Assembly: GCF_963576615.1 (NCBI RefSeq)
Contig: NC_088708.1
Location: 65,450,672-65,514,671, forward strand
Origin: Watersipora subatra
Taxonomy: Eukaryota > Bryozoa > Gymnolaemata > Cheilostomatida > Watersiporidae
DNA length: 64,000 bases
Reading direction: 5' to 3'
Shown here: one piece after another, positions 3,301-60,985 of the stretch
Position numbering within the stretch: position 1 is the stretch's first letter
Layout of the letters: every line of letters begins with the position of its first letter
The notes under the pieces: generated by a model
Seen by the model: the letters and a program-made list of their open reading frames with translations, nothing else
Database searches by the model: none
Told to the model about the DNA's origin: nothing
Translations under genes and position numbers: made by a program

Positions 3301-6300
3301 AGTAAGACATGGTGAATCTTTTCATATCAAATAACTGTAATGTGAATTTTGTTGCAAGTCAACCTTTAAAGTAGGCGTTATAGAGGCAGAGTCGACCTAT
3401 TTTATGAAAATGACTATTAGTCAAACAACTTATATTAATTTGCATTACTATCACGCTTAGATTTTTAGATACACATTGTTAAGGATTCTATGTCTATTTC
3501 ATTCCACTGTCTAGTAAATATTTCAAATCAGTAGGCATACACATGGCATATCCTATTTTTTAGCTACTCCAGAAATATACAAACCGCCATTTAAAAAAAA
3601 TTTCCTATACATTTTTATATGAAATCTTAAATGAACCTTCAGTTGAACTCTCAGTCAACTTAGATAGAAATAATAAGCATACCGCTGCTGATATGAGCAT
3701 CACCAGCATGATATACCAAGTTAAAATGATAGTAAAATAAAGAGTGATGAACTGGACAAGAGACCAGCTAGTACCGTCATATTAAAACAGTCCAGAGTAG
3801 TGCCCAATACAACTAAAACTTAAATATATAATAGTACAATAAAAAGGCTGAAGAAAACGTTGGTTCCTGTATGTTATTGACTACACAAATGTATGTGAAA
3901 CACTCATTACATCGTAGAAGTAATGGTAGACACATGGAGAAGACTACCATGCATCTAACATCCGAAACATGGAAAGACAAGGAAAGTTGGAAAGACAAGG
4001 AGTAGTAGTTGTAAAAAATATGTTATCAAATAAGATCAAGTGTTGTATGGTTTCTACCAAAGCTTTAGTAGACAGGACCTGCTAGTTAAGAAGGGAAACA
4101 ATGTCTCAAAGGTCGACCAACATAGGGCCAACCCAATCGAAGACCCTAAACACAGTATAGAACAAGTAACATAAAAATTTTTAAGAATATAATCGTTGAG
4201 TGAACAAAGATAATACCTAGAGATTATCCAAACCATTCTCAAGGCTACCATCAAGTTGGGTAGGGTCTCTGTAACCATAGCAAAGGTAGAACCATAAGTT
4301 ATATTCTTCATGTGTCTGTCAACAGTACTGAGGAACCGTGCATTGTCCTTGGCTTCTGTGAAGTACTTGTGTATGTCCTCTCGTAGGTACTCCAAACTGT
4401 TGTCTACTTGACTGTTCACCTGAACAAGTGATAATTTCATCATAGCTATGAAGCAAGTAATGACATGATATTCAAACCCTAATCAAATCGCAAAGATAAC
4501 CTGCCCAATACTCCACAGTAAATATACAAGATACCATCGTATCACAAAAATAACTCATTCAGCACACCAAAGTGTTGATACAGAATCTCAACTCATCACA
4601 AGTAAAACTTACCCAGGACACCAGAGTGAAAGTACAAGATACTGTACCATCACATTACAAAGATAACCAACCCAGTACACTACAGCCAAAGACATGTATC
4701 ACTCTACTTGATTTATTGCAAAAGCTTATGGAAAGTGTTGCATCACGAGGAGTAGGTTTGAAAAGTAAGATTTATACATGCTTAACATGGAAAGGAATTT
4801 TAAAAATCACATATTCTATAATTGATGTTAAAGAATAGAGAAAGCATAATATTATTATGATTTATTAGTTATCTTGAGGTGTTGACTGATGTTCTGAAAA
4901 AAGAATCAAGGAGATTGACCCCCTAGAAGCTGAGATATAGACAGCCAAACACAGGTCTACCTAATAAAGAATCAGAGGAAAACCCTTCGAAAATCCCGAA
5001 AACTATGACGTATAAAATCGACTTAATGGTCATGTGCCGGAGTTGCGCACCCTTACCGCCGTTACTTATAATGATTGTTTTGGCTACGAGATGTGAAACG
5101 CTTCTCGCGATAGTAAATAATTTACATACTAGCTCTGGTTTCTCAGGAAAATCATCCAAACATTGTGTGGTAAAGGCATTTGCCCACAACCCCTCGTCAT
5201 GATTTTTTAAAGCAGAAGAGCAGATTTTGACTATTGTGCTTCAAATTTTAACTCGATCTCCACGGATATGCTCCGAAGATCATCTGTTCAACGAACGGCG
5301 CGTGTATAGTCTATATGCGATATCCGCGATTGCAGTTTTTTTAGAATACGAAATAGGAATGGGACTTTTTGTTCCTTCATCATTTTTCTACTGTGTATCT
5401 ACTGCAGCATTCAGTTGATTTTCATGATTATCGTCACTATTAACAGACTGGAAGTTCACTACAGCCATAATCTTAAAAAGACTAACTTGACCGTGCTGCT
5501 CTTGCTATAAGAAAAGAAAACGATAACTTTTGCTTTGATTTTTCTATTGATCTATTATCTTATCTATGATTATTTTTTATGATTTATATAATATTCATAA
5601 TGCATATTATACAAAATAATAATATAACTGCGTATAGAATAAATGATGTAACTAATATAATTTGTAGAAAATTCCAAATGATAACCGAGATTGATTTAAT
5701 TGATTCTATTTATTAGCTATAGTTAAAAAATCTGAACAACGCTAAAGATGAGTCTGAATAGGGAAGCTAAGTAGGAGAACAACAAAACTGAGCTGAACTA
5801 GCAAGATAGCGAAATGTTGCGAAATAATAGATGCGTGTAATTATTTTATGCTAAAACTAATCTACACGTCAGAGGGACTGGTTCGGAATTCTAGGAGCGA
5901 TGATTGTTAGGCCCAATTTGATTGTTCTATACTTCCAGGGATTAAACCAATTAAAACGCCGTGATTGTTATAGGAGAGCGCATTAGTTGGCTTAATTGAC
6001 CAATGACACACAAGTCGATTTCATACGTCATATATTGATGATTACCAAAACACTTTTGTTTTTTGGTAGACCTGTGTTTGGCTGGCTATATCTCAGCTTC
6101 TGGTTGGTCAATCTCCTTGATTCTTTTTTTAGAACATCAGTCAACACCTCAAGATGAATAATAAAGCATAATAATATTATGCTTTCTCTATTCTTTAACA
6201 AGAACAGAAATACAGGTGAGAGGAGGTTCAGCAGTAAACACAGACGAAAATGATAAACTCAAATGGGTCAGATATTAAAAACAACAAATCTACCAGGTTG

Positions 6301-9300
6301 AGTTTTTAAATGCATAAATGTTTTTAAATGCTGTTTGACGAACTATTTATTCCAATATGCTTTATAAGCTGGAAAGGAGCAATAGATTCAATGTGAGACA
6401 CTGCCATATTTTTTTGTGACAGCTAGAGACCGGATCATAAACAAAATTGAACGGCTTGAGTTTCAGCTATCCTTAATCACACACTGAAAATCTGTTTGTG
6501 TGTTTTCAGCATATGTTAAAACTTCACCTTGATTATCTCCTGAACTCTTGGTCTCTTAAGCTGCTCACTGAGAGCGCTCAAGTTGGCATGCCGCTCCCTC
6601 CAGTAGGCTATCTCAGCAAGAGGACCGTTAGCCTTCGGTTCACCCTGATTGAGAGCAGCCAAAGCGGTAGACAGCTTGCTGAACCAGGTACCACAGGTTT
6701 CAGTGACTGCTGTCATCAATTCATGGTTGGCAGCATTTTCTTGAGGATTGTCACTGATTTGGGCTGGAAGTGTCGGAAGGTCCAGAGTCACAGTACCTAA
6801 TGTTAAAAAGCGTGTTACACACCATTGTTGCTGTTGCTATTACCATTTGATGTAAGGATAAAAGGTAGATAAAGTGAAGTAGGAAATGTTATGTGTTAAT
6901 ATTGCTGCACCTTCCAGTTGTTCAGAAGTTTGCTTCATTATATTAGAAAAACGTAACATCGCTCCATAAAACTCATCTCTTGTGTTGGTCATGGGTGTAC
7001 CATTTTTGGCATGCTGTTTTGCCTCTCCTTCATGCATGCTGTACCTTTTAGAGTCATAGGCTAGCATTGGGATGTAGAGCTGTAAGAAACAAGAAACTCG
7101 GACTAACTCGAAATGTATCATTACACACTGGTGGACATAACGTTATATGTAGAAGTTTCTGGCATCGCTGTATCTTAAAGTCAAATCTCTGTCAGCTCAC
7201 TTCCCCAACTGTCATTCTACCCTTCTGCCAACAAATCTCACATTTTATATCTCCGTCTTTTATCGACAAGCATATACCTTAGCAAATTTAAAGTCTACGG
7301 AATCATGGAAATGTGCAGAAAGTGGTTGCTCCATAGCTTGCGTAAATTGCCAAAGATTTCATATTTTAAACAACATACAACAAGCAAACTGAATGGTCTA
7401 TTCCAGCATATTGAGAGCCAAAGGCTTGCAACTTTAGCAATCGAGCAGCTTTCCTCTATTCTAACGTTTGTGATGATTTACAAACTTAAAAAGTACCCAA
7501 AATCCTTTTTACGGTTACTTTGACTTTATACCTGACACTAAAACTATTTTTGATCACTTTCAAAGTAGGACGATATTTGTGTACCATGGACTACTCTATG
7601 TCAGTGACTACTCTATGTCAGTAATTACTCTATGTCAGTGATTACTCTATGTCATGGACTTCTCTACAGTCAATGTGTATGCATTTAATGTACGTATGTT
7701 GTAAAAACAAATTTTGGAAAAATAACTATAAGTTAATCAAAGTAAAGTTATGAATTTCTTGTGTTCAGGACGCTCGCATACAGGAAATGAATGGCAAAAA
7801 TTACTAACTGTTGTAGTAACAACTACTAGTAGTTATGGCAATGGCCTGTTCTTGTTGTTATAGCAAAGACCTACTGTTGTTATAGCAATGGCCTATTGTT
7901 GTTGGGCAATGTATCCAACAATTTATCCAGCTACATTATGCTTTTAGCAACACAGCATTATCACCCAGATTTTTTGTTGCACATGGGCTAATACAAGTGA
8001 AGAAAACAAATCCCACAGTCCTAATTGTGCATTTGTCGTTACCAAGTTTCAGTGCCAAGTCAAGTCGATTATGTGGCTCTGTCAACTGATATGCGTTATA
8101 TTACATCACTGTTGCAATATTTCAAAAGGCGTTTTCAAATTTATTTCAAATTATATTATAGCTTTTTGATAACAAACTCATTTGAATATTGTGAGAACAA
8201 CATATGCAATTTAGTGGCCTAGGAACATAAAAACAATCCAAATTTTTACTGCATGCTTTTAAAAATCAGCGGTTCATATCATTCACATATATCAAATTCA
8301 TATCATTGCGCAAATGGCAGGCCAACATAACCATCTACATTTGGCTTTGACATAACTCAAAATCTAAAAAGTGGTGCAAAATTATTGGGTCACATTTCTT
8401 GATTGAGCCAATTTATCATGGTGTAAGTGATACGCTTTTTGGATTTGATTACACCTCACTCTATATCTTAAGTTAACAAGAAACATATCAAAGGTGTGCT
8501 ACACTGGTGTCTCTCAACTCGTATGTAGGAGAAAGTAGTAAGATTAGCTGAAATACAATGCAAATATTTACCTGTTCCAACAATCTATCTAAATCAGCAA
8601 TATTCTTTGTGCGAAAAGTTCCCATTTCTAGACCTTTACACATAAAGGAATTGGCTTCCTCGGGAGTGGTAGCATCGGGAATGAACCCCTCCCCAACCCT
8701 GCTGAAGTAGACTGCATGCTCAGCCTCACAGATTTCTGTGTTAGGATTTCCCAGGACCATGTGAATGTCAGTGCTCTCTTTTACCACTCTTCTCACCTCC
8801 TACAACCATAGACACTCTACCATTACTCCAAGATAACATGAACATTTAAAAGCTTCAGTTAAGAGTAACAACGTAAATTAAGAAATATAACTTACCTCTG
8901 TGGTTGGCTGAAAGACAGGCAGTGCAATAGGTTCTTCGATTTCTGTAGGAATATCTATTTGGGGCAGGTCAAGTTGAGGCAAACTCACTTTGTTCACAAC
9001 CAGGGTGCTTCCCTTGCCTTTTTCTTATATAGGAAACAGAAAGACTAATCTATCAACAAATTGACAGCTAGTTACATAGAAAACAAGGTTTAACTAATAG
9101 TTATGAGCAATTAAAAGGGGCTTTTCAGTCGGAAATCAAACTGGTCATACAAGACAATGGTAAAAAAGGTACTTACTTTTACCAGGCTTGACCTTTTTGC
9201 TACGACTACGAGCTGTCGTTTTCTTCCCTTTCGTTTTGGCGGAGGCTGCAGCCCGCCCACCTGAATTGCTTCTAGCTGCTGCAATATCCCCACTTGCAAC

Positions 9301-12300
9301 ATTCTCATCCCTGCTCTTACTACGACTCCTGCTCCCACTTTTGCTTCTGCTTCCACTCAATTGGGCTTTGAGTTTCGCCTTTTTGTTTCTTTGTTTTACT
9401 GTAGAGCCAACAGAAGCCGTGCCTTTCAAGTCATGGTCAGTAGATATATCTGTTCTGCTAGACTCTGCATGACCTTGACTTTCTCCAATCTCAAGCTCAC
9501 TTCCTAAAAAAGATCCTTTAAAAATGTGCTTTTATGGTTGTTATTTAAAAACAAACCTGGTCAACATACTATTATAAAACCATTTCAAGTTTTATTTAAA
9601 AAGTGTATTATATATGTTATAAGCAACAAACTTGAAATGGTACAATATGTATATATATAGCTTAATGAGAAGAACTACAGCATCCTTGATTTTGAGAGTA
9701 GCTGAAAGCTAAGTACAAACCATTACTTCAAGGTTGACTTGCAACAAAATTTACAGTACAGTTATTTTGTATCAAAAGATTCACCCTGTTTTATTCTGCT
9801 GTGTAGTAGGTGCAAAATATGTGGAAATGTGACTACAAACTCTTAAAAGCTCAAAAGTGAACAGTTAATCGCAGCCATCACAAAAATGCCGTAGATTGGA
9901 ATCTCTTTATTTCGACGACGTGCTCAGACATTGTGGTTATTGTTTTTGATCACGTGAAATTAAAGGCCAATAAAAAGCTAAATATAAAACGTCTCGTAGC
10001 ACTAGTTTATGACAAACACTTCGGGGTTCTACTGAAAAGCTCTTATCAAATATAGATGCTCGCTATGTTACAGTTTTGTTTCAGTATGGTCTAATCATCT
10101 AGTCGTAATCTGATCATGTGACCCATACTTTTTGCGAAATGGCGCGAACAATTTCTGCAGCATTTTTCGACTATCACAGGTGATCAACAGGCTCGTCATG
10201 TTTATTAAAGGATGATATACACTCCTTCGAGTTAAGATTAAAAATTAATTGAATTTTTATGGTAGGTTTTGAGATATCAGTGCTTAAAGTGACAGTATTA
10301 CAATGATGATGAAATAGACGCATAAGGGCAATAGCCATGGTTTTATTGAATGCGTGAAGTATATTTGTGAAAATATTTCGATGGATGAGGCTGCATGAAA
10401 GTGTAAACAGAAACACATCGTGTTCATCTATGTCCCATTCGAGCCATTTTGAAAAGGGATTCCAATCTATGGTGTTTTCGTGATGGCTGCAATTAACTGT
10501 TCGTTTTTGACCTTTCAAAAGCTTTTAATCACATTTCCACATATTTTGCACCTACAACACAGCAGAGTAGGACATGGTGAATTTTTTGATACCAAATAAC
10601 TGTAATGTGAATCTTGTTGCAAGTCAACCTTTAAATCATTTATTAAGATATTTAACTAGATACAACTCAAATAACTAGATAAGATTTGCTTGGTACAACT
10701 AAAATTTGTGGTGCCAGCTACATTGCTGTTAAACGCTTGATGGTTTGGCAAGATGGCCGGGTGTAGAGGCGGTACTTATGAATCCCCGAAAAGATAGTCA
10801 CGTGCCAACCTCCGTGATGTGAATTCATGGCTTTTATTTGGTGTTGGTAATACTGGTTTGAACATTGTAATATTTTTGCTGATAGACATAAGTTGTAGCA
10901 GTTGCTTTCCAATTAATATCAAAGTTTTGTTTTTGTTTTCAAATTTCATGTATTTACTTAATTTTGTTTGGTTTAGTTCACTTTTCTGGTTGAATCAAGC
11001 TTTATTGTCATTGTATCTGGATTCGATTTCTGTTGCACTCAATCTAATGTTTGATTATGTTTTCTTGTTGGTTACATTTGTTACATTAGCTTTATAACTT
11101 ATGTTTTTGGTAATGAACTTTGTAAGAAAAATTTCACAGTACCAGACTGTTAGCGGTGACCCTCCAAACCTCCCCCTATGTCACTCCTACTCTACCTGCG
11201 CGTCTTGCCAGAAAACACCGTAGTGCCAGACTACTCTAAGAGATAATATAACCACCAGTCACCAAGACCCAAACAGACAAGAAAAGATAGTTTATCTGTA
11301 ACAGCGAAAAAACACCGCGAAGGTCTCAAATCACGAGCTAACTAAACAGTGCCCTTTACCAGAATGCAACATGGCCGACTCTCTACATCAGGTGGTGAAT
11401 GCCGACAAACTTGTACGAGCTCCCCTCGAGCACCACGTGACTATCAACTCGCATACTTATTATTGTCTAGTGCGCATTTGTCTCTTTGTCTGCAATTGCG
11501 TCTTTGCTTGATTTATTGTGTTTTTCTTAGGTGAGTTTAATGCTTTGTGCATTTATTACGCTGTTCATATTTGGGATGCACGAGTAGCTGAGTTTTGCCA
11601 TGTGCTGGCTTAAGACTTTGTGCAAAATGTTCATTGCGGAAGCATTAGGCAATATTTTGAATGTTCTTTTCTGTTGGTTGTAACATTTGATTTATATGGG
11701 TGTTGTACCACATTGTTTTGCATTGTCTACTGTTTTTGTAGTTGTTTCTGTTGTGTATTGAAGTTGGTGGTTATAGCCACTTTGTTTAACTGCACCTTGG
11801 TATGGTTGTTTCATCTTGTTGAATTCCTTTGTTTGATGAATGTGTGCTTAGTTGTTTATGTCTATACCAATGTTACTGATGACGGTTTTGTATGGTTGCT
11901 CCGTTTATGTACATATATTATGCGATTGTCTGGTTTTAGGTAGGGAGTGTGCGGACTTGCCATTAAGTTGAAAATTACATCAAAAAAATTGAAATTTGTT
12001 TCTTTGCTTCGATTTTTAGTTTTAGGTTGTTGCTTGCTGGTTTTACAGATTAATTTTTGTTCTCTCTACCTGCTTTGTATTTCTTTTACATAATGTGAGT
12101 CCATCTCTGTAAATCCGGTGCGTGTTGATAGTTTATTTGGGAGTGGTCAAAGTAGATATATGCCTTCTAGTTTATATACGGTATATTCATACTTGTGCTT
12201 CATCAAATTAACCATTTTAAGACTACCTTATTGTGTACTCGCCAGCTGGTAGATTGGCATGAATTAGCAGGAATTGCTCAATCTTGCAGCTGGTCCATTA

Positions 12301-14416
12301 CCAGTGTCAGACAATTCCCCAATTGCCCAAACCGTCTCACACAATTTTTTGTGTCTCACTAAAAACTTCTAAACCAGCTATAGTGGCAACTAAATTGTTA
12401 TCCTGAACTCATACTTCATGCTTTTCCATTAATTTTGATGTTGGACATGTTTGAATAGCCAATATTTATTGCTTCACAAATTAAGATTGTTTTCAGTGGG
12501 TGGTCATTAGCAGCCTAATGCAACCTTTCACCACTTCATATTTTTCTGTCGACATTAGTCGTACCATGAGCTTTGGAGGAGTTTATCTCATTGTAATTAA
12601 AAAAGCTGGCAATAATTACGACACGGATATCTCATCATTGTCATCGCAAAATAGAAGTCTTGAGACACAAATGGTGGCCTTGAGGAAGGCCGAGATGGGA
12701 AAAGAGAATGAATAAAATGACTATCAGTTAATACCCGTATTTACAGGCTGCCAGTGTGCGTAATAAGGTTGGTGATTCGTTCCCTAGATAAGTCTATAAC
12801 TCGGCCGCTCTAAATTGCTGACTCTATGCGCTTATATTACGTTGTATGAAATTTGATTTATCCCAGTTTATTTAAATTTGAATAGTTAATTACAATGCGC
12901 TCGCTTAACATCTGTCCGATGTAGTATATACAAGTATATATATGGTTTATAATAGCAATTTTTATGTTGACCATTTATTACCATACTGTTTTAGGATTTG
13001 CGTGTTACTATATAAATACTCAAAAAATTGTTAATATTCGAGTTACACGATTAGTTAGTGACAAATATTATCGTTTTTGTGTTTGAAATATTTTATAGTG
13101 GCAACAATTATTATTATTATTATAACTTAAACATTGTGCAGCCAATTGCCTGTGGATTTTTCCCTTGGTTTGCTATATAACTTTTCAGATTCACCATTTC
13201 TGGGTGTTTTACTGCTTGCGCTGTGAGTTATAGTACCAATAGAGATACTGCGTTCTTTAACTAGGCTATCAGTCATATACAAAATTCAAAAAAGTCTACA
13301 ACCTTTAATTTCAACAAATTGGTGGGTAATATGTATCCACATGGGTTCCTATAAATTCAGTTGTTTCTCCAGAATGGTCTATGAACTAGAAATGAAAAAC
13401 CAAAAATTGTGCCATTTCACCTCACTCCCACCTATAGCTCTGCTTGATTTGCCAAAGGAAAGTAGAGTATCAAATTCTTGACACTGTTTCTGACTTTAGC
13501 ATTGTGATATCAGCCAGCGAATCATGGCAGCATTCACCGTAAGTGCTATTGACTGAACATCAAAAACTATTACATTGGTTTACCAGGGTGTAGAATTTGG
13601 GAAAAGGCATCCAAGAGTCTGTTTCGGCTCACCCTCAAGTCTGTTTATCGGCTTACCCTCGAGTCCGTTTATCGGCTCACCCGCAAGTCTGTTTATCGGC
13701 TCAGTCTCGAGTCTAGTGCTGGCTCGCCATTGCACTGGGAATTGTCTACCTGGCCTAGTACGTTCACTTCACCATGTTATTCTTCTTTGTTTATTTTACA
13801 GTAATTATCGAGTGTGAATTATTATAGTCGGGTAATCAATCATTTATGCGTAATTTATGCCATGACTGGCACAGCGAGGTAGGAAACTATTGCCATCTCA
13901 TTAGCATCGTAGGAGTGACAACTCTTATAAGTACGTATTTATCTATGGGGCAAACAAGCTGCCTTTTTGCAAATTTGTTACATATGTATATTAATCTAGT
14001 AATGCACAGACTCGAACTCTTACACGCTATGTAATCATTACATGAAAATTATTTCATGGGCATAATTTGTGATACGGGTTCCTTGCAACCTACAACGTGG
14101 AAACCTTGTTAATAACAAGCTTTTAACAAGCAAAAACTTTCTTCTTTTTTCGTAAACACGCAATATGCGTGACATTATAAAATAAATTACCTGCGGGTAC
14201 TGTTATTAATTCTTCAGTTTCAACATGAGACGTTTGCTTGTAGAAAAATACGGTCCTTGAATTACGCTCCTTGCTTGGATTAGGATTTGAAAGAAAACGG
14301 TTCAAGTCCTCTTCGTTGTTGTCTCGCAATAAAAATTCTTCAAATATTTGGTTATCTTTAACATCAAGAGCTAAATTTACTTGTTTCATTAGCCATCCCA
14401 AGCGTAAGTCATCCAT
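357..14416 (-). CDS. DNAH10: Axonemal dynein heavy chain, DNAH10-like, N-terminal tail (3' part outside window)
   Basis: Ten exons read leftward: 14416-14191, 9503-9177, 9023-8896, 8799-8572, 7079-6911, 6796-6528, 4419-4217, 2438-2337, 2257-2059 and 473-357. All junctions are GT-AG, all phases agree, and they sum to 1968 nt (656 codons). The gene continues past base 1, so the AAA motor is not seen. The start is the ATG of MDDLRLGW. Exon 2 encodes a basic Ser/Arg/Ala-rich stretch. From exon 4 on the protein follows the dynein heavy chain N1 tail: GPLAEIAYWRERHANL (exon 6), AKDNARFLSTVDRH and ALRMVWIISR (exon 7), YNTDNRMVPLLERIAW (exon 8), GRDSRWEFDRKRLFERTDY (exon 9) and IHEFQTIFNSDLKNVTGE (exon 10). 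These combinations fit DNAH10, an inner-arm (I1/f) heavy chain that binds intermediate chains through this tail. Dynein heavy chain is what I see; the paralogue assignment is from memory of the family and is less sure. Another axonemal paralogue such as DNAH2 is the alternative. Confidence 0.85.
2485..3369. mobile_element. TTAA-flanked inverted-repeat MITE, family 1 copy 1
   Basis: TTAA at 2485-2488 and 3366-3369 bounds a roughly 880-bp element. Its ends are long inverted repeats of over 100 bp that start AGGTTGRCTTGCARCAAAATTC. The same ends recur at 9727-10634 and 47433-47780. Duplicated TTAA is the target-site signature of piggyBac-type transposases, so this is probably a non-autonomous piggyBac-like element. 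It lies in an intron of the dynein gene and no transposase is present. Confidence 0.8.
4828..6198. mobile_element. TTAA-flanked inverted-repeat MITE, family 2
   Basis: TTAA at 4828-4831 and 6195-6198 bounds an element of about 1.36 kb. The arms (about 4832-4963 and 6066-6194) are inverted copies starting AGAATAGAGAAAGCATAATA. Its ends differ from family 1 but the target site is the same. Open frames inside, for example minus 4923-5189 (88 residues), have no recognisable domain and cross the terminal repeat, so I do not call them genes. It sits in a dynein intron. Confidence 0.78.
7589..7656. repeat. Short tandem repeat, about 18 bp x 4
   Basis: Four imperfect copies of a unit like GACTACTCTATGTCAGT lie head to tail in a dynein intron. 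The following 7800-7905 stretch has looser repeats of GTTGTTATAGCAA. Confidence 0.8.
9727..10634. mobile_element. TTAA-type inverted-repeat MITE, family 1 copy 2
   Basis: About 900 bp, homologous to the element at 2485-3369 in the same orientation. The right flank keeps TTAA (10631-10634); the left flank reads TTCA, a one-base decay. The inverted arms contain TCAAAAGATTCACC and its complement. A 114-residue minus-strand open frame (10174-10518) lies inside and into the arm. It has no recognisable transposase motif and I treat it as non-coding. The copy is in dynein intron 1. Confidence 0.75.
10820..12130 (+). other. Strand-skewed G/T-rich tract in dynein intron 1
   Basis: Much of this 1.3 kb is strongly T- and G-rich on the plus strand, apart from a more balanced block near 11140-11450. 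Long open frames here are rich in Leu, Phe, Val and Cys, as expected of composition alone. No RNA gene or transposon end could be recognised. Confidence 0.4.
11371..12715 (+). CDS. Possible small nested plus-strand gene (two candidate exons)
   Basis: An ATG in good context (CAACATGGCC, 11371) opens a frame MADSLHQVVNADKLVRAPL that stays open to 11511 and has a possible GT donor after LEHH. At 12497 a strong acceptor (GATTGTTTTCAG) opens a frame ending SLETQMVALRKAEMGKENE and a stop at 12715, with AATAAA overlapping that stop. The tail looks like a short coiled coil or charged C-terminus. Both pieces lie inside dynein intron 1 on the opposite strand. I cannot show they join, I recognise no family, and chance open frames remain likely. 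Confidence 0.22.
13612..13714 (+). repeat. 24-bp tandem repeat, 4.3 copies
   Basis: Copies start at 13612, 13636, 13660, 13684 and (partial) 13708, with unit CAAGTCTGTTTATCGGCTCA plus CCCT. The period is a multiple of three, so one plus-strand frame repeats an eight-residue motif like SPSSLFIG. No splice or start context supports translation. Confidence 0.85.
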
Positions 14417-14929
14417 TGTGCGTGATCATTATTAAACGTACATGTACAATACTTTTTGTAACTCGCGGTCAAAAGTAATCGCAGCACGTGGAGCTTTACG
14501 TTTTTGTATCACTACGCGTATCAGCAAGCAGCTTGCGGATGCATACTGTAGAACCTGTCGAGCAGAAGTGACCGAACAACCGTTCGTCAATCGTTAGCAG
14601 GAAATGATAACTCTTATTTCGTTTTGTTACTCCAACTTCATGTTAATGCAGTGATTCTCAATTATTTTCTGTCATGCCTCGCCCTGCGCCCCTCTCCCTC
14701 CTAAGAAAAAACATCTCCTGCCTCCACCGCTACAACTAGAAATAGAGTCATTGGTAAATACAAATTGTTATAAGTGCACCTTTACATAACATTGTATGTG
14801 TGTATCTTCAACAACATAAAAGAGAAGAAAGAAAGAAATACGGACCAACTTACAAAATAATAACTATAATAACTGTAACAGAAATTATTTAACACTTCAT
14901 ACTTTCAGTGTAGACAAAACCCCTACACC

Positions 14930-15190
14930 AAAGAATGAATGGTTCTGTGCATACTCTGCCAATGAGAGTGCCACTGCCCCCTAGTGTAATGGAGATACTG
15001 TGGTGAACGCCGAGTTGCCAAGGCCAGAGCCGGATCTGAGAGAGAAGCCGACCCCGAGGTGACTGATGCCAGGATCGGGCCGAGTCCTGACTTGGCAGAC
15101 AGCACGCCCCCGCTGATACCTCCAGTCGGAGAAGGGTCGGTTGCCGAGTCAACCATACTGCTGAGGGGCGGTGCCAAGCCAAGATGAAGC
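14930..15190. other. GC-rich block upstream of the dynein gene
   Basis: About 260 bp with far higher GC than its surroundings. A minus-strand frame (15279-14923, 118 residues) rich in Ser, Gly, Ala and Leu spans it, as does an overlapping frame of 97 residues. No domain is recognised. It may be an exon or UTR of an unseen gene, or a remnant of a retroelement. The rest of 14417-17744 shows no gene; it contains the hairpin at 15393-15592 and a 20-bp duplication near 15809-15847. Confidence 0.4.
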
Positions 15191-15392
15191 GCTATTAAAA
15201 ACGCCGTAGAAGCGAGTAAGCCGCTTTTGAGTATTATGCAGTCATTTTCAAATGCAGCATGCAAATATATTCTGATCAATCAATACGCGGCAGTAAAAGT
15301 TTGTTTGAAGTATTAATGTGAGTAAATAACAGTTTGTTAAGCATTATTATAACTTTGAAGAGATTAATAAGGCCTTTCAGAAATGCGTGTCA

Positions 15393-15592
15393 AGTTTTAT
15401 TTTACTGGTTTAAAAACATTGATAAACAGAATTACTAGCTGGGCTTGTTATTCTAATTCAAAAACATTACACAAGAGAAAACGAGGTACTTCATAGTATC
15501 TCGTTTTCTCTTATGTTATGTTTTTGAATTAGAATAACAAGCCCAGCTCGTAATTCTGTTTATCAATGTTTTTAAACCAGTAAAATAAAACT
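15393..15592. repeat. 200-bp near-perfect inverted repeat
   Basis: Arms of about 95 bp face each other around a centre near 15492 (TACTTCATAGTA). The left arm begins AGTTTTATTTTACTGG and the right arm ends with its complement. The outer end abuts TATC repeats. It is probably a fold-back transposon and has no coding capacity. Confidence 0.9.
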
Positions 15593-17744
15593 ATCTATCT
15601 ATCTATGACGGTAGCTGCAGAAATAATAATACCCCACAATTAAAGTTTGCTTGCATTGCAAGCTTTGTGTTATTTTTACCGAATTTGTCAAATGGGAGGA
15701 AGCGTGGTTATTTGAGAAACAAAGCTATAATGTGTAGGTGAAGACAACTTTGGTTTCTTAGCTGTTTTGGAAAATAATAGTCAGCAACTGTTTTACTGTC
15801 AGCAATGTCATATAGTACTGAGGCTATGTCATATAGTACTGAGGCTCATCAGCAACCTATTACGTAAAGCTAGTTCTTTTCTGTAACAAGACACAGTATG
15901 TCAGTTTTTCCACTCTGACAAGGAACGAGATTACATTGATCACTCTCAAAAGGAATATGTGAATGTTCCCTTCGCCATCAACTCCCGATATTTGCTGTTA
16001 GCAGCTCCAATCTGCTAACATCCATGCTAGTATGCACTGCTAATAAACTTTTATCATTTGAGTTGAGAGCAAATTTTAGGCTGGTTATAATTTGTTTAAA
16101 ACTCCATCCGCTTGTATATTTGAGAACTTGCTTTATACATTTCACATCACACATGAAATAGCTAAAATACTACAGTATAAAAGTTTTATTGTCACGCTGA
16201 TATCATTTGCAAACCGCAGAACAGGTTTTCAAATATCATTCTATTACATTTTTGTGAGCTTGTTAATAAGTCGTCTATGATTGGTTGTTGCATAACATTT
16301 ACGTAAACCAGCCTACTTGATAAGAAAAGAACTAGATTGAATTCCTTCTAGGAGCTGGAATGAGTTCTTTGTGCTCAGTAACAAGAGCTCTATTCAGCTC
16401 TGCTTATAGACCAACAGTTCAACTTTTCAACTGAAACTCAATACGCACTAATATACCTCATTATCTTATGTATTGTGTTGAAACAGCTCCTAGTGTACAC
16501 ATTCAAGATATATTGCATAGCTACCAGCGGCCTATAGCAACAGTAACCCGTACATGCTTACAAGCTAGTAGTGAACCGAGCACTTGGAGCACTTGGCATG
16601 TCGTGTCATGTATAGACACTTCACTTGACATGTTTGGTAATCAATAACACTCGGTGAAAAAGTGTTCAAGAACTCGGCTCATTTGCAAGACTATGAGCTG
16701 AATCTGTGTGGCTGTTTCATTCTGGATAACTTATTAAACTTCTGATTTTAAATTACAGGTATTACTTATCTTCTGCTACTAAAATATTGTTTTTACATTA
16801 GAAAAGTTGAAGGTTGGAGTTTTCTGGAGTTACATAGACTAAGATCTATGCAACATAATAAAGAGCGCAGGGCCTAGTCCCTGCTTGCAATTCAGAAGAT
16901 AGATAATAGTGTTGATCTGTGCTTCATCAGTCAGTTACCTAGATAGGAGTTATTTTTCAAATTTAATGCTTTTGGCATGGATTATGGCTCAACTCTAAAG
17001 TGTTAAACAGCTGCATAGACTCAATCCGTGTCCATTAATGGTTCAAGCACGTGTTTTGTTTCTTAGCTACGCAAAAGACAACGTAAACACTTATTTGCAA
17101 AATATGTGTTTTAAAAACCTAGTTTTTTCTGTTTGAAGTTGCTTATACAAATCAGCAGTTTAAATTTTTCATCCAATAAGAATAGAAAAACTAACAAAAC
17201 TGCTTTTTTCTTTTTATTAAAATCATAACAATTCGGCGAGCCGGTCATTGTCTCGCAAAATATTTTTTCAACTGCTCGATGTATGCTGGAGAAAAACTTT
17301 AAAGTGCTTTGCTCTTACATCATACATTTATCTGAATTTTACTATAGAAAGTGGCTCATGAAAAAGTATCCTTCTCTTGGTACCTAGTATTTGTGATGTG
17401 TAGTACTGCTATACATTGCATCATAAATACTTGCTAGTTGTTACTTATATCATTGCAATCTATTGAATCAAGTGACAGTTTGCGGTACATGTATATTAAA
17501 ACTTTGTGTTTTCACATCCACAAGGACAAAGTGCCAACGGTAAAAATGGCTCAAAATTTAAAGATATTAAAAGGGAGGATTACATTTGAAGCCCAACAAA
17601 GCAATTCAAACCAACTCACCAGAACCTTAGGCTAAACCAAAATAGTTTGTTTTACATATTTTCAAAGGCTGAGCCTCCTGTTTATATAAAGTCTGTTGAG
17701 CTATATGTTAACTTACAGGAGTCTATATCTGTACATACTTACCA

Positions 17745-17790
17745 AACTAAAAACTATCAACTCAGTGCACTGAGTTGATAGTTTTTAGTT
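17745..17790. repeat. Perfect 46-bp palindrome
   Basis: Two 23-bp arms, AACTAAAAACTATCAACTCA then GTG and the exact complement, meet with no spacer at CAGTG|CACTG. It ends 64 bp before the first coding ATG of the downstream gene. Confidence 0.95.
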
Positions 17791-17853
17791 GTATATTACT
17801 GTATGATATACATGTGTATCACCATCATACCTGTATCTCTATGTAGGTCAGAC

Positions 17854-20800
17854 ATGGCAATGTCAAGTCTCTCTCCAGGAGTTCTTTTCAAAGCTCCAGG
17901 TCTGAACCGACGGCACACACCCACCCAGATCACAGCCACCTCTGACTTAGTCAAGTCCAAATACCGCAGGTTGGTAAAAAAACACGCACATAATGTATTG
18001 TAGCCTGTGCTTTATGCACTACCAATTAGAAGTGACACATTGATAGGATCCAATACTGCAGAGTACAGCAGTATTGCAGAGTACTGTAGAGGTATAATAC
18101 TGTAGAGTACAGTGTGTAGGGATATAATACTGTAGAGTACAGTGTGTAGAGATATAATACTATAGAGTACAGTGTGTAGGGATATAATACTGTAGAGTAC
18201 AGTGTCTAGGGATATAATACTGTAGAGTACAGTGTGTAGGGATATAATACTGTAGAGTACAGTGTGTATAGATATAATACTGTAGAGTACAGTGTGTAGA
18301 GATATAATACTGTAGAGTGCAGTATGTAGAGATATAATACTGTAGAGTACAGTGTGTATAGATATAATACTGTAGAGTACAGTGTGTAGGGATGTAATAC
18401 TGTAGAGTACAGTGTGTATAGATATAATACTGTAGAGTACAGTGTGTAGGGATGTAATACTGTAGAGTACAGTGTGTAGGAATATAATACTGTAGAGTAC
18501 AGTGTGTAGGGATATAATACTGTAGAGTACAGTGTGTAGAGATATAATACTATAGAGTACAGTGTGTAGGGATATAATACGGTAGAGTACAGTGTGTAGG
18601 GATATAATACTGTAGAGTACAGTGTGTAGAGATATAATACTGTAGAGTACAGTGTGTAGGGATATAATACTGTAGAGTACAGTGTGTAGAGATATAATAC
18701 TGTAGAGTACAGTGTGTATAGATATAATACTGTAGAGTACAGTGTGTAGAGATATAATACTGTAGAGTACAGTGTGTATAGGTATAATACTGTAGAGTAC
18801 AGTGTGTAGGGATGTAATACTGTAGAGTACAGTGTGTATAGATATAATACTGTAGAGTACAGTGTGTAGGGATATAATACTGTAGAGTACAGTGTGTAGG
18901 GATATAATACTGTAGAGTACAGTGTGTAGGGATATAATACTGTAGAGTACAGTGTGTAGGGATATAATACTGTAGAGTACAGTGTATATAATGGATCCTG
19001 TGTGTATTGATGAGTGTCATCACACAAGCATGTAACATCAGAACAGCTGTATTCAAGCTGTTAGCATAAAATTAAGTAGAAGCATAAATAAACAGGCACA
19101 TTTTGTAAATGCGCCTGTTTATGTAAACGCGTATATTGATGTAATACGAGAGGAAGTGCACAAGCTTTTGCTGTTCATAGCCTGAAAAGGTAATGAGCCT
19201 ATTGTTCTTCTCGCACTAAGCCATCTGAGTAACCAGGATCACCATTACTTCCTGTTCTCAGTGTCACACATTGGATTATTTTTAACTGATGTGATGATAA
19301 TTATTATATCTCATTACTATGTCTACTCCGCATTTCCAATTAATCTGTTGCATTGATAAATGTTCAATCAATACAATCTCTTAGCCGAAATACATAGAGG
19401 GCTTTGCTTAAGGCAACACAGTAAATTGATTTCGAATTGTTTCAGGTGTTGTTTACAGTAAAAGGCTTCATAGCCTCAGGCTTATTCACTAGTCTGCAAT
19501 CTCATAGACATAAATGGGTAACATTGTGAGTCTTGCCTTTGCAACCAAAAAAGCAACAATTCATTCAAAAGATTGTAAAAAGAAATGAGTATTGATTAGT
19601 TTACAGTTAAATGTTTACATAAGATGAATGCACTTTGATTATTCTCAAAGAATATATATATTGGACAGTTTTTTCTGCCAAGCTCACTTACTTTGTCAAT
19701 CAGAGCTGGTAATACACTCTTGTTCAGTGGTTCAATATTGTACAGGACACAGCTTTGTGCTGAACGCAAAGTTTTTGTCTCATGTTTGTAAATTATTATT
19801 TTGTATTACTCTATATTACTTTGTAGTATTGATTTTGCAGAGCAAGCATTCCAGAAAAAGACTGGCCACCAGAGAGCCCTGTTGCCCAGATATATGACAT
19901 CAGGAACACTTCCTCTAACCTCATTATTCTCAACAACAAGATGCGGAAGGTAAGGTACTTACCAGAGAGGTTTAGACTCAAGTAAGTACTGTTTGTTACT
20001 TACATTCATATTCAAAGGCTGCTCAATAAGTTTTTCTCTCTCTTCAACTGCACAACTAGCCGGGTTGTCATACTGTGAATAAGCGGCTGTCAACAAGTGG
20101 TATATGGGCATTTATAGATTACATATAATATGTTTATGAATTAGTGTTTACCATGATATACCTATTGACTATACTATATTAAGTATAGTTAATAGGTCTA
20201 TGGCGTCTACTTTGGTGCAGTTTTAGATGCTAGTTATCTTTTCCTTACAGAAAAGTCATCTGCGTGTTCAGTCAGGGAGATACCAATCGTCTTCTGACAG
20301 GTCTGTGCATCAAGTTATTTGCTGCTTATTTGAAATTATTTTAGCATGGTGTCACAAAGAGTCTCTGCATGAATAGCTGATTTATGTAAATTTATAAATA
20401 TTTATGTGAGTGACTGGTAGCTTTCTTCTGATTGGTTCGATAAACACTGAGTGTAGGCCTACATGCATTACTAAAATAAAATGCTAGAAGCTATGTTGTT
20501 TTGGAATTTTTAACAAGCCGATTTTTAGCTAAAATTGACGAAGCATACTAAAGATGGTTTGAATAAATATGTTTTTGCAAAAATATTATCATTTCTATCT
20601 TAGGGTTACTGTTTGTATAATTATTATTATAGCCCTGCTATTAGACTTACCACTGTTCCGCTATTTTGCAGCAGTGAAGAGAAGGGAACCGCTGCTGATC
20701 CCAACCAACCTACTGGAGGTTAGTAAAATCTTTTAGCCAACATAGGCTCTGTTCATTCTATGCTATACTCACATAAATATATTATTTAGCCCAAGTTTTA

Positions 20801-23800
20801 GCCAATCGTTTCTTTTGACAGAGCTATAGACATGCGTGTATGACTTCCTGTGTTGTCTTTCAGACAGTTTAAACAAGCCCGACAGACATGAGGCCTGCAG
20901 AGATTCAACTTCTCCCATATTTTACCCCACCCCTCTAAGACCCCCAACTTCCGGTGGTGATCACACTGTACTAAAATATCGGTACCCCGCTACTCCTGGA
21001 TCTCCTCAACCTAGAGAATGGCACCATTACAGCAGTCAAGTAGACCGGCCCAGCCGTGTGTACAGCGCACCTCCTGTACGAAGCAAGTCTGCTGGTCGTA
21101 AATCTAAGGCTATAGAGCCGCCTCCTTGCTTCAGGTGACAGCAATGACATTATGTGTCCGAAATTGTAACTTGACATAAAAATGAAACACATATGACGAA
21201 AACGCCTTAATACCGTAGGTTTAAGATATAGATTTGTAAAATGGTGTGATTGACATTTCAATCTTTGATGAGCTAGTGAATGACCTTCAAATTTTAAATT
21301 ATCATAATCATTGAAAAAAGGTTAAGACCTTCCTGTTGAGGTATTTTGTGCATTAAAATTGTCCTGTGCAGCTTTATATTCATCTGTCTATTTGTTCTTT
21401 TCTTTCTGTGCACTTTAAGTGCTGGTGAAAAATTCTAGTACACCGGTTTAAGCTCATTTCATTTCAGGTGCTTATAAATAATCGTAATATACTAAAACAC
21501 TCTCTATATAAATTTTGTAATTACATGTACTTGTTAGGCAAGACAAGAAATGGTTGCAACACCCTGACATGACTTACGGTCAGAAGAAGTACATGAACTC
21601 AATAGCATGTACCTACGACGTGACGCACATGAAGCAGCTAAAACAGGCCCAGTATTTACAGCTTATTTACCGAGAGCAGCAAAGAGGTTGGTTTCGCAGC
21701 ACCTGCTGCTCATGTTTTACAGTATTGCAAGCATGGCACTCAAATAGTACCTCCCTCTACTAGTTACGATTTGATATTGCTAGTCTCATGTTGTTATAGC
21801 AAGAGGTTGGTCTCGCAACACCTGCTGCTCATGTTTTACAGTATTGCAAGCACGGTACTCAAATAGTATCTCCCTCTACTAGTTACGATTTGATATTGCT
21901 AGTCTCATGTTGTTATAGCAAGAGGTTGGTCTCGCAACACCTGCTGCTCATGTTTTATAATATTGCAAGCATGGCACTCAAATAGTAACTCTCTCTACTA
22001 GTTACGATTTGATACTGCAAGTCACACAATTTTATAATCAATAATAACCATTATCAACATTTTTATATATTTTTACAGCTCTCTGTAAGTTTATGCTGTT
22101 CACACTGACTGCTTTAGACAATTGAGCACGCATTGATTGGCTTTTTAGACGCTTATTTATTTTATGGAGTGGATTTGCTGCATGAATCTTGAGCTCACGC
22201 TAACAAGGCATTGAGTCGAAGTAAAAAAAACGAATTCTAGTTATTTTTGGATGAACTTAAAATGATATTTTTGTTTTGTCGATTAGAGAATGGACCTAGG
22301 TTTGTTTTGCCTAATACACAAAAAAAGAAGAATGTTAGTTGGACTTGACAAAGTTTAAAGAATCGTGTTATCCCCTGTAGCTGTCAGTAAGACACATAGT
22401 AGCTATCACTTAAGGTGTATTCACAGAGTGACCCGAGTGTTAACTAATACATGGCAACAGAGATAAGCATGATTTGCCATAGAAAAGTTTGAGAATGCTA
22501 ACACGCTGTTGGATAGGAATGTTTGCCGTGGTGCTGGTTGATAAAAACTATCTTTTGAGGCTCAACTGATAAAAATCGCTGGCTAATAGTCTTGCTTCAC
22601 TGCACAGCTGCCGACAGCATTGTATAACAATTGCTTAACTACTCAACAGATTTCTTCACCCCGGAGGAGTATACCAAGTATGTTAAATATCTGAACAGTG
22701 AGCGCACAAGGCAGTTCAACAGTAAACCCCCGCCTCCAGCTTATTACAGATTTCCCGCTTCGAAATCATCTCGGAAATATGTCAACAAATTTCCGAACAA
22801 TAGGAGATCAGCCTCTGCCAGAAATGATCAGAAAGAAAGAGATTTGGAAGTTAGTCCAAGGCAATCTGCCCCTAAACCATTTGAGCAGCGCGCTCCTGCA
22901 GTTCAGGAGTCTACGGCCCATCAGAGGGAAGACAAAGATTCAGAAAGGCAAGCAGGAATGAAAAAGTGAGTAGGCTAAATGTTTGTTATTATCAATACCG
23001 TATTGATGGTTTTTGTAGATAATTCACACTATTTCATGGACACTGTTATACAGCTTCGATTGTGCTTAGCGAGTTTCAAGCATTGCAAAACTGATTTACA
23101 TTCTGTACAAACCACAAGCTTTTAAAACAATCTTGTTGGTAGCAGAAATAAGAACAACTTGTTCATACAATACCTTTAAAGAAAGCCTATTGTGATGACC
23201 AATGTATTGAAACAGACAATGAAACCAGATTTTTGTTTGGCAAGAGGCTTGAGCTAACCAAGGGTTTTTGAAGGACTTATTTGATGTCTGTATCATCTTG
23301 TTGCCACACTTCGTTGCTGGTGTTATCTAGGCCTGTGGATACTACCACTGAGTATATGATGTACTCAGAACCTGACAGTCCAAAGAGAGAGAATTCTACT
23401 GAATTCCGCAGTCGTAGGCCAAAGAGTTCCAAGTTCAGAATGCGAAATGAACAAACGAGCAATGCGCCTCCTCACCATTCCGATGAGGAGAGGACTGCGG
23501 AAGAAGAGTATAGTATTGATTCGTTCAAACTGTCTCACCGTTGTGCCATGGCTCACTCCTAAACTTTGAACCCCTGAATTTGTTGTCTGATTGAATTGTG
23601 CATTTCAATTCGGCGAAACCCAAATTTCAATTTGCATAAGCAGTTTGGAGTTGACTGTGCAAGGCCAACGCAACAAAAAATTGACTAAACCCACACAGCT
23701 TATTCTAGTCTTCTTTCTGGCATTCGTTAGCAGGGCTATCCAGATCTTATGTAATACGGTTGAACTTGATACATAAAGAGGCATCATTCATTCGTTTGCT

Positions 23801-24484
23801 TTTCATTTTTCAGATCGGATGGGTTTTGGCAGCAACCACCTCCTCCTGTCAGAGAAACTGAACCAGGTAGGCAGTTTTACCAGTAATCGCACAACTGACC
23901 CGTATTTAAGCACAGATTCCAACAAGCAGTCAGAATTTGTTTTTTGTAAATAAGTTGTTCTACTTGTACATGAAACTATCTGTTATCAACTCAAGTACAT
24001 GTGGTGGCTCCTGAGATGTAAATAGGCTGTATGGACAGTGTTAATTTTACAAGTTGGTTTATGGTGACACATTTTACAGATGGGACAGGGTTGAACATGA
24101 CAAAGGATGGACATCTTAGCAAAGATGGGCAAGCTATAGAAGAAATCTCCTCAACAGAAAACCAAGAAGAAAAGCAATCGCGCGAAACGAAGAGTGTGTA
24201 GAGCAAAATGAAAGCTTCTGTTTTCATTTTGCATTTCCATCTTTCACTTTATTTGCTCATTAAACTCTATTAACATTTCAGAGAATAACTCTATTGGTAA
24301 CTCTATTGACATTTCAGGGAAGGAAGATGAATCAGGGAGTGAGAAGGATGAACAGACCTATGATATCAAGCATGAAGACGGGACCAAAACCCGAGTTTAT
24401 GCACCGCCCTTGCACAAATCAACTACAGAAGATATTCCAGTAGTGACAGAAGAGAACAAAGATGATAGGGAAGTGAGAGAGTAA
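17854..24484 (+). CDS. Unidentified 522-residue basic, Pro/Ser-rich protein (11 exons)
   Basis: Exons: 17854-17969, 19841-19949, 20251-20300, 20672-20718, 20864-21134, 21538-21686, 22650-22965, 23331-23507, 23814-23866, 24080-24193 and 24318-24484 (stop). All boundaries are AG/GT and phases agree throughout (1569 nt with stop). The weakest donors are 23507 and 24193; the exon ending at 23507 could instead run further. The start is the first ATG after an acceptor; a 5' UTR exon may lie upstream. Features: DWPPESPVAQIYDIRNTSSN near residue 45, RSKSAGRKSKA near residue 190, a dense conserved-looking core WLQHPDMTYGQKKYMNS, LKQAQYLQLIYREQQRDFF and EEYTKYVKYLNSERTRQFNS at about 200-280, then RRSASARN and a Glu/Lys/Asp-rich tail. 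No signal peptide or membrane segment. The mix of Tyr-rich core and disordered basic arms resembles cytoskeletal or ciliary proteins, but that is only an impression. The gene is convergent with the TRIC gene. Confidence 0.75.
18058..18990. repeat. 30-bp minisatellite, about 30 copies
   Basis: Unit GATATAATACTGTAGAGTAC plus AGTGTGTAGG, nearly invariant over 930 bp in intron 1 of the 522-residue gene. Each unit carries the short inverted repeat ACTGTA-GAG-TACAGT. Unit ends vary as TAGG, TAGA or TATA, and some units read GATGTAATAC. As the period is ten codons, long minus-strand frames (273 and 168 residues, repeating YTLYSTVLYP-like decapeptides) stay open. These are artefacts of the period, not genes. 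Confidence 0.97.
19091..19122. repeat. Small hairpin
   Basis: AACAGGCACATTT and AAATGCGCCTGTT pair with one or two mismatches around a short loop, inside an intron. No function is evident. Confidence 0.5.
21682..22025 (+). repeat. 119-bp tandem triplication starting in an exon end
   Basis: Copies begin at 21682, 21801 and 21920, each starting AAGAGGTTGGT and ending in GTCTCATGTTGTTATAGC. The first copy starts with the last five coding bases and the donor of exon 6 of the 522-residue gene, so the donor AAGAG|GTTGGT is present three times. The last copy decays after about 105 bp. Confidence 0.92.
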
Positions 24485-24604: not shown

Positions 24605-24610
24605 AATAAA
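24605..24610 (+). promoter_or_regulatory. Poly(A) signal of the 522-residue gene
   Basis: AATAAA lies 121 bp after the stop at 24484, in the gap between two convergent genes. Position and strand fit 3' end formation. Confidence 0.6.
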
Positions 24611-25507: not shown

Positions 25508-28500
25508 TCAACTGGTTTTCATTTTTTGATGATGAACGGCTCCATTAGCCTGTGTACCCTTTCGATCTTGCCTAACAACCAGCTTATAGGCATCCCACAT
25601 CCCTCCGAAGACTATGGCACAAAACAGGTTCTCAAAAGGCACAAAAGGATCGGCTATGACGCCGAGAATCATGAGAATACGCAAGTATATGAGAACCGCG
25701 ATGGTGCAGGAGAATAAGACGCTGTGGTTGACCTGTATGTATGAATAGTGCTCCAAGCAAAACATCGCAGACACCAATGCACTCGCCTTGAACAAGCTAC
25801 AAAATATAAATAACACTCTGCTACCATTATGCGCTTTATGCCACCAACAAATGTACTTAGTCGTACACACTGATAGCCACAGCATATAATTATCATACAC
25901 TATCACTCTTGTATTCAATGAAAACATTCTACATGCGATCAGGGTTGGCACAAAAAACCAAATGATTCAAATTGTAGATTCAATTAATGATTTTTTACGA
26001 AAAAATCAACGTTTATTAATTTTTTATAATTATGCAAAAATCAGTGTTGCTTGACAAACAATCTGGTTTTTGATGTATGTGTAATAAATTTGTAAACGTT
26101 TCTTTGTCATGAATTACCAAGTGTGAGGGAGGTAATTGATTATATGTGCAGTGCAATGCTACGGAAGGACCTCTGAAGTTAGGACCTATGAGTTTATTTA
26201 ATAAACCTTAAAGCAGGAATAATTGTGAGATAGCAACTATAACCGGTACAGTTCCTCCTCACTACTCTGTTAATAAATGGCATGACGTGAAACTTTAATA
26301 CCGCAATCAGCTCGGATGCATTGAAAGAGTATTGTTCTTTTTATTCCAAAATAACAAACTGATACTAAAAGAGCTGACAAGCTGGTATTTGGATTTAACA
26401 TGATCAAGTTTGATCACATATCAGAATGCTGGTGAATCCAGTCTTCAGTGCTAGTAACTTACAAGCTTTAATTTGACAAATTCTTATATTTATCACAGTC
26501 AACAGTCATATAAAGTCATATTGTGGAAAATACACGTAAATCAAGGACATGAAAAAGTGGTATGAAATATTCAAGACACTTTCTTCCTTGGTGTGATCGA
26601 TGCAGTTCATCGGATCAACTGCATCGATCACACCAAGGAAGAAAGTGTCTTGATTTTCATTCGACGTTTGTGTAAAGCTGCTAGTAGCTCAACTCCACTA
26701 CCTTAAATGTGTTTTCCACAATATAATTTTATATGACTGTTGACTGTAAGGAATATAAAAAGCTGTCAAATTGAAGCATGTAAGTTACTAGCACTGAAAA
26801 GTGGGCTTACCAGCATTCTGATGTGCGATGCGCTACACATACAATTCGCATGAGCAAATATGAGCAAAAATCAACTTTATGAAAAAAATCATAAACATTA
26901 AAAAATTGACCAAATCGATTTAGAGCAAAAAAAAAGATTTTTCGATTTGTTAAAAAATCATGATTTTTTCCAACCCTACATTCATTATTATATTTCCACG
27001 TGCATCACCACCAATTAAATAAGTGTGCGGAACTCCATGCAATAAAACCCGCATCATGCACAGCTTAAGCTTAAAGCTTGATTATTATATTTCAGTAATC
27101 TGCCCACATGAGAGGGCCACACAGTGAGATAAGAGCAGCGGATGCTGTATTCTCACATGTATCAGCCGTACATGTACACAGGACAGGCTGAATAAAGTAT
27201 AATACAGTCCTTGCACTGAAAATGTAAACGATTGTATGATAGCAGACTGACGAATGAAAGTAGTTAATCACATACAGAAAGGTCTGAAGAACAGTCAAGT
27301 CTGAGTGAAATCCAAGTGAGTCATATTACAACAACAAACAAAAAGTTAATGTACACAGAAAATTGGGCTTAGCTTATTGATTATGTTTAACAGACAGTAA
27401 TTAGCTACATGGCATGTTAAGTACCTCGGTCTAGGACTTTCTGATGCAGGACTTTGTGGTTCCAGACTTCATAGTATTCTTATTTTTACACCGAAAGATT
27501 ATTTACGGGTTATACAGTAAAAAAATAACACCTTTATAATAACATGAAAATGTAAAAAAATTTTAATCGTGATACATACACACATAAAAATATACATACA
27601 CACATGAGAAATAAATAAGAGAAAATGAACAGAAATTTTTAGTTCGGTTTGCCATACTTTACTCGGGAGTTTTATTGCACATTTAGCTTGAGTAGCTTCA
27701 AGTAATGATCCGTGGCCATTCCTTTTCGCTTTTAATCACTATTTCGTTAATTACATGAAAGTATACGTTCACATCGCCAAATTCGACTAAAGGATCTTGT
27801 GAACTACATCTGTCAAATATGTGAATGTAGCTGTTATGTAAAATATTTCTTTTCCCGCTTTGCTTAAAATTTGTTTGTTGAACCGTAATAACTCGCGATG
27901 AAAGATAGATAAATTGAGCTCATAACCTGTGACAAAATGTCCACGCCAGAAATTGTCAGGCCAAAAAGTCCCATTCCGTATGTAAGGCATAGACATATAG
28001 GGTGTAAGGGTGCTCCTCTTGCGAGTTGAACAGAAATATCTAAAGATTTTCTAATGTACATTATACATACTCACAATTTTCAAAGCGTATAAGGTAAAAA
28101 TTAGTGAATAGCTGAGCAGATGTGGTCAAGCATATTTTTATATAAAAATTAAAATTTATATAAACACAGCAATAAGGAGTTGATAAACTAATGCAAGTAC
28201 AATAATGCTTTGAGTCCTTGACTTAGCCATGTTTGAATAACTGCTTCAAAAACTCCTACAGATCTTAACCAGCCATCTATTAATCGGATTTGTTTGAATG
28301 ATTTTTCTTGTCAACACCAAAAGTTGGCTCAATAATAATCAGTCTCATATATGGCTTAGCAAATATTTTCAATTCTTTTAATCAATCTTATGAGTTGTCT
28401 GCACAGTATACTCATAAACAACACAGTGGATGGCGCTGGTAAAATAAGATTATCTGCTCACAATTTGATATCTGCTAGAAACTTTGTGGCTAAAAAGGTT

Positions 28501-45460: not shown

Positions 45461-45550
45461 GTTGCCTCAAAATCTCTCAACCCAGCAGTTTTGCTCAGGC
45501 TTCGGCTTCGTTTACATGCACAATAAATATCCACCGGTGAGGCTACAGCC

Positions 45551-58887: not shown

Positions 58888-59154
58888 ATAGCGCTTAAGT
58901 CTACCACAATGACATCTATACAGCAGACAGTCAAACCTTGTCTCGCAATTACCTCTCCATCCAAATTTATCAGTAAAGTTGAGCATTTTTAACATACGAC
59001 ATTCGAAGATTCTTGAAAAAACTGCAGTTTTGTAAGCCAGTAAAAATGTGTGCAAGTTTCCTTTCAGTGTTCTGTGTTATGTTGATATGCTGCTCAGACA
59101 ATACTGAACATTTCTCTGTCTTAGAATCAGTGATACCAAAAACACTATTGTGAG

Positions 59155-59456
59155 TAATGGTAGTAGCAGTGGTAGTAATAATAGTAGTAATAGTAGTAAT
59201 AATAGTAATAGTAATAATAGTAGTAATAATAATGACAGTTGTAGTAGTAGTAATTATAGTAGTAGTAGCAGTGGTAGTAGTAGTAGTAGTAATAGTAGTA
59301 ATAGTAATAATAGTAGTAACAGTAGTAGTAACAGTAGTAATAATAATAGTAGTAGTAATAGTAATAATAATAGTAGTAATAGTGACAGTTGTAGTAGTAG
59401 TAATAGTAGTAATAGTAATAATAATAGTAGTAATAGTGACAGTTGTAGTAGTAGTA
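59155..59456 (+). repeat. AGT/AAT trinucleotide microsatellite, left half
   Basis: About 300 bp of AGT repeats with AAT, GGT and GAC interruptions, open in several frames as poly-Ser/Asn, poly-Val/Ile or poly-Leu. These are composition effects. A second half lies at 60698-60985. Confidence 0.97.
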
Positions 59457-60697: not shown

Positions 60698-60985
60698 TAA
60701 TAGTAGTAATAGCAATAGGAGTAGTAGCAGTAGTAGTAGTAGTAGTAACAGCAGTGTAGTAGTGGTAGTAGTAGTGGTAGTAGTAATGGCAGAAGTAGTA
60801 GTAACAGCAGTGTAGTAGTGGTAGTAGTAGTAGTAGTAATGGCAGAAGTAGTAGTAACAGCAGTGTAGTAGTGGTAGTAGTAGTGGTTGTAGTAATGGCA
60901 GAAGTAGTAGTAACAGCAGTGTGGTAGTGGTAGTAGTAGCAGTAGTAGTAATAGCAGAAGTAGTATTAGTAGTAGCAGTAGTGAC
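60698..60985 (+). repeat. AGT microsatellite, right half with higher-order units
   Basis: After the transposon the AGT array resumes and is organised in four units of about 54-57 bp that begin TAACAGCAGTGTAGTAGTGG. The left half lacks this higher-order pattern. Confidence 0.92.

Follow-up and report, generated by a model that had tools for sequence, protein, structure and literature searches.

FAM216 proteins in animals

FAM216A and FAM216B belong to a family that has a name but has been little studied functionally. In the passages of published papers that bear on them, Fam216b serves as an ependymal marker (PMC12594593), FAM216B is found mainly in the fallopian tube and in parts of the lung and brain (PMC6872636), and a gene list for nasopharyngeal carcinoma places FAM216B together with DNAH9, RSPH, CFAP and TEKT1 genes (PMC6444505). 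A passage in a preprint counts FAM216B among the genes for ciliogenesis and ciliary beating (PMC12139823). Other passages associate Fam216b also with astrocyte endfeet (PMC8453861), include FAM216B within a long gene list (PMC7962432) or, in a scoliosis study that sought links to cilia, give FAM216A as 'Not Annotated by BiNGO' (PMC6071588). FAM216B was not found in the main text of PMC10662950, and among the papers listed for the two names, few of them from subscription journals, none has FAM216A or FAM216B in its title or abstract.

As to distribution, the relevant part of one study lists the FAM216B domain for sea anemones and for none of the corals that it examined (PMC6214176). The sea anemone record means that an invertebrate FAM216 domain is already known and is not new here; the coral record implies that the domain is dispensable in some ciliated animals.

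A FAM216-family match in Watersipora subatra

The window, a 64,000-nucleotide stretch of the genome of the cheilostome bryozoan Watersipora subatra, had been predicted to hold on its plus strand a complete eleven-exon gene for a 522-residue protein of unknown family. When the full 522-residue protein was compared with Pfam, its sole match above cut-off was to PF15107 (FAM216B), at 27.1 bits (E 4e-6); the curated cut-off of this profile is 27 bits, which the full protein passes by just 0.1 bit. The core (residues 199-273, 75 residues encoded by exons 6 and 7) scored 30.1 bits (E 4.9e-7). The alignment pairs core residues 7-62 (205-260 of the protein) with columns 33-86 of the 111 in the profile; columns 1-32 and 87-111 are unmatched by the Watersipora protein. 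A resemblance to NOP19 (15.1 bits, cut-off 25) was rejected as falling below the cut-off.

Taken singly, exon 6 (49 residues) scores 25.5 bits to PF15107, below the cut-off, and exon 7 gives no PF15107 match in the Pfam scan. That the join raises the score from 25.5 to 30.1 bits supports the exon 6/7 junction independently of how the splice sites were chosen, and bears out the claim in the original prediction that the core crosses one exon boundary. The core is also Tyr-rich, as had been said: it has 8 Tyr in 75 residues, and the whole protein has 23 in 522.

Is this likeness merely a convergence of a short Tyr/Gln-rich stretch in a gene of some undescribed family? The marginal full-length score and the coverage of only half the profile would fit such a reading, but the core reaches an E value of 4.9e-7, its PF15107 match is split in frame over two exons, and none of ten control cores (nine shuffles and the reversed sequence) matches PF15107; we consider convergence very improbable. 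Two of these ten controls had weak matches in other families, below the cut-off, with E 0.057 and 0.098. The gene thus very probably belongs to the FAM216 family. Since its Tyr-rich core matches FAM216 it is, as judged from its sequence, a new and longer member of that family and not a new family. The earlier description of the family as unknown accordingly does not stand, although what replaces it is a named family that is little studied, and not a well-known one. A gene that had no place is given a name.

Only one place in the W. subatra genome (783,720,542 bases, 239 contigs) was found by a six-frame PF15107 search, among the best candidates scored, and it is exon 6 (27.6 bits); the same search gave no match in 14 control genomes. 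A protein search of the genome with the core returned, again among the best candidates scored, only the core's own two exons. The gene would then be the only FAM216-family place found in this bryozoan genome, where a divergent second copy may nevertheless exist. Human FAM216A is adjacent to GPN3, and this microsynteny, used as a test for a FAM216A orthologue, was not found: none of nine GPN-family (PF03029) matches lies inside the window, and two of the nine are on the same contig as the FAM216 gene, about 4.8 Mb away.

Gene model

The eleven joined exons (Table 1) amount to 1569 bases, that is, 522 codons and a TAA, running from the ATG to the stop with consistent phases and with GT-AG boundaries at 10 of 10 introns. 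The complete gene that had been proposed was therefore rebuilt exactly. Exons were joined by reading the three plus-strand frames and picking splice sites partly so as to keep phase. The agreement of phases cited in the original prediction is seen at every join but, because site choice was partly guided by it, is weak proof by itself.

Table 1. Features of the FAM216-family gene and its surroundings (window positions)
Feature	Position	Strand	Basis or remark
Apparent DNAH10 gene, 5' part	4054..14416	-	phmmer matches in PDB, chains labelled dynein axonemal heavy chain 10
Exon 1, with ATG	17854..17969	+	joined reading frame; homology support none
Exon 2	19841..19949	+	joined reading frame; alternative donor gives end at 19981
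Exon 3	20251..20300	+	joined reading frame; chance open frames this long common
Exon 4	20672..20718	+	joined reading frame; chance open frames this long common
Exon 5, basic arm with SKSAG	20864..21134	+	joined frame; open-frame control 0/4011 in introns
Exon 6, putative FAM216 domain, first part	21538..21686	+	PF15107 25.5 bits alone; six-frame genome match 27.6 bits
119-base tandem repeat, 2.9 copies	21682..22023	+	copies at 21682, 21801, 21920
Exon 7, putative FAM216 domain end and basic arm	22650..22965	+	joined core 30.1 bits; open-frame control 0/3135 in introns
Exon 8	23331..23507	+	joined reading frame; open-frame control
Exon 9	23814..23866	+	joined reading frame; chance open frames this long common
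Exon 10	24080..24193	+	joined reading frame
Exon 11, acidic tail and TAA	24318..24484	+	joined frame, charge count, open-frame control
AATAAA, candidate poly(A) signal	24605..24610	+	pattern match; starts 121 bases past stop

How often a stretch as long as each exon is open by chance was assessed at every placement, in three frames, in the introns minus two repeat arrays. The exon 5 length (271 bases) was open in 0 of 4011 intron placements and the exon 7 length (316 bases) in 0 of 3135; the fractions were 0.021, 0.008 and 0.012 for the lengths of exons 6, 8 and 11, 0.05-0.06 for exons 1, 2 and 10, and 0.27-0.32 for exons 3, 4 and 9. With the same exon lengths, a second control region, intergenic 14500-17800, gave 0 of 9093 and 0 of 8958 for exons 5 and 7, then 0.042, 0.018 and 0.025 (exons 6, 8 and 11), 0.10-0.12 (exons 1, 2 and 10) and 0.37-0.42 (exons 3, 4 and 9), fractions that are all above those of the introns except for the zero counts. 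Random sampling with the repeats included gave values mostly slightly below those of the repeat-free control. By these controls exons 5-8 and 11 are beyond chance, exons 1, 2 and 10 are weakly so, and little is proved by exons 3, 4 and 9. A codon-usage score, for which 451 codons from neighbouring genes served as the training set, ranked the chosen frame first in only 5 of the 11 exons; it is too weak to help the gene model.

Exons 1-5 and 8-11 found no homology support in the Pfam and PDB comparisons; it is their splice sites and open frame that speak for these outer exons. They could be wrongly chained, with exon 2 longer and exon 3 absent, with other ends, or with two genes run together, any of which is compatible with whatever function the protein has. 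An in-frame alternative of this kind exists (exon 2 extended to 19981, exon 3 skipped), exons 3, 4 and 9 are short and lack proof, and the codon score is as poor as just noted; against this, all ten introns are GT-AG, one frame continues throughout, and the stop is followed by AATAAA. We regard a chaining error as rather unlikely, and the eleven-exon gene as probably real.

Two repeats lie within the gene. The 119-base tandem repeat begins just inside the 3' end of exon 6, and the exon 6 donor is repeated twice more in the intron (21801 and 21920); splicing from either of these would lengthen exon 6 by 119 or 238 bases and shift the frame. A 30-base minisatellite of thirty copies (18085-18985) makes up about half of intron 1.

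A DNAH10-like neighbour

DNAH10 is a ciliary dynein gene whose product is part of the inner dynein arm. Upstream of the FAM216 gene, three of four minus-strand frames compared with PDB chains by phmmer have a DNAH10 chain as their best match: 14123-14425 (chain residues 1-68, E 6.3e-5), 6516-6836 (residues 275-363, E 2.1e-12) and 4054-4482 (residues 374-436, E 5.4e-18). The DNAH10 label is to be read with the caveat that an equal-scoring chain in the same PDB entry carries a different label. The fourth frame (8488-8799) had no significant match to PDB, and the minus-strand frame 6840-7142 had no Pfam match. The DNAH10 gene appears to start at about 14416 and to run away from the FAM216 gene. 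The two genes therefore stand head-to-head, their start codons 3.4 kb apart, an arrangement that can be due to chance.

Four loose patterns for the X-box (RFX site), our own choice, were searched for in the 3.4-kb gap. Together they gave 4 exact matches, none of them to the strictest pattern, against 0.94 expected; of 300 Markov sequences, 3 had at least as many. Matches with one mismatch are many across the whole window, in a scan made without a control. The sequence thus suggests, weakly, a mild X-box excess upstream of exon 1.

On the minus strand, a TRIC-channel exon (PF05197, 79.6 bits) is found downstream of the FAM216 gene at 32797-33447, and cytochrome P450 exons (PF00067) at 42205-42666 and 45071-45466. 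A minus-strand open frame at 25508-25966 looks membrane-spanning by eye and has no Pfam match. Thr-, Ser- or Tyr-rich open frames at 58970-59525 (both strands) and 60692-61057 (minus strand) are repeat-like and probably not genes.

Possible role

The protein would combine a single conserved segment, some 55 residues in length, with long charged arms. The arms are net basic up to the core and immediately beyond it, and net acidic at the C-terminus, which confirms the charges given in the original prediction; the disorder ascribed to them there can be read only from composition, by which they would be disorder-prone. The SAxR and SKSAG motifs noted earlier are both present but sparse: there is a single SAxR (SAGR, residue 183), and it overlaps the sole SKSAG (residue 181). 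SASAR is found at residue 301.

Our preferred explanation, held with moderate confidence, is that this sole FAM216-family gene found in the W. subatra genome encodes an accessory protein of motile-ciliated cells. The expression of mammalian FAM216B and the head-to-head DNAH10-like gene are the reasons for favouring a role in ciliated cells, which we think somewhat probable; the mild X-box excess counts weakly on the same side. The gene would be expressed in cells bearing motile cilia (tentacle, larval or sperm cilia), the core would dock onto a partner in the cilium or basal body, and the basic arms might touch microtubules or other acidic surfaces; that they contact microtubules in particular is doubtful. 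The original prediction had suggested a search among ciliary proteins, and this direction finds indirect support in the same two observations but not in solved structures: neither the full protein nor the core has a match among PDB chains at E up to 10, those of solved ciliary structures included.

Several points count against this explanation. The full-length score clears its cut-off by 0.1 bit and covers profile columns 33-86 of 111 only; and the astrocyte endfeet, the unannotated FAM216A, the lack of a structure match and the absence from corals all speak against a ciliary reading. A FAM216 protein with a non-ciliary role, for example as a general scaffold whose disorder-prone charged arms bind nucleic acid or proteins, is quite possible, though we give it less credence than a ciliary one. 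In its favour are the passage tying Fam216b to astrocyte endfeet (PMC8453861), the high charge of the arms, the loss of the domain in corals recorded in part of one study (PMC6214176), and the fact that no ciliary structure contains the protein by sequence (PDB, E up to 10). It fits poorly with mammalian FAM216B being reported, in the passages cited above, from ependyma, fallopian tube and ciliary gene lists.

A bolder version of the role in motile-ciliated cells would make FAM216 an ancient motile-cilia accessory, kept from anemones through bryozoans to mammals and lost in corals, that in W. subatra is co-regulated with DNAH10 through a shared head-to-head region with RFX sites and acts with the DNAH10 inner dynein arm or its docking. 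We think this very improbable; a functional link between FAM216 and DNAH10 would, if true, be the strongest novelty of this locus. Given the DNAH10-like neighbour and the places where mammals express FAM216B, it would be reasonable to test FAM216 for a function in motile cilia.

Comparison with known systems

The W. subatra protein may be likened to the SPMIP/CIMIP class of inner proteins of ciliary doublet microtubules: what they probably have in common is that they are small accessory proteins with long disorder-prone stretches in ciliated cells. They differ in that the W. subatra protein has no sequence match in PDB at E up to 10. The closer comparison is with FAM216B and FAM216A themselves. 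Human FAM216B and FAM216A are about 139 and 273 residues long, so that the W. subatra protein, at 522 residues, is longer than either; what it shares with them is the part of the 111-column profile from column 33 to 86, with a score above the cut-off.
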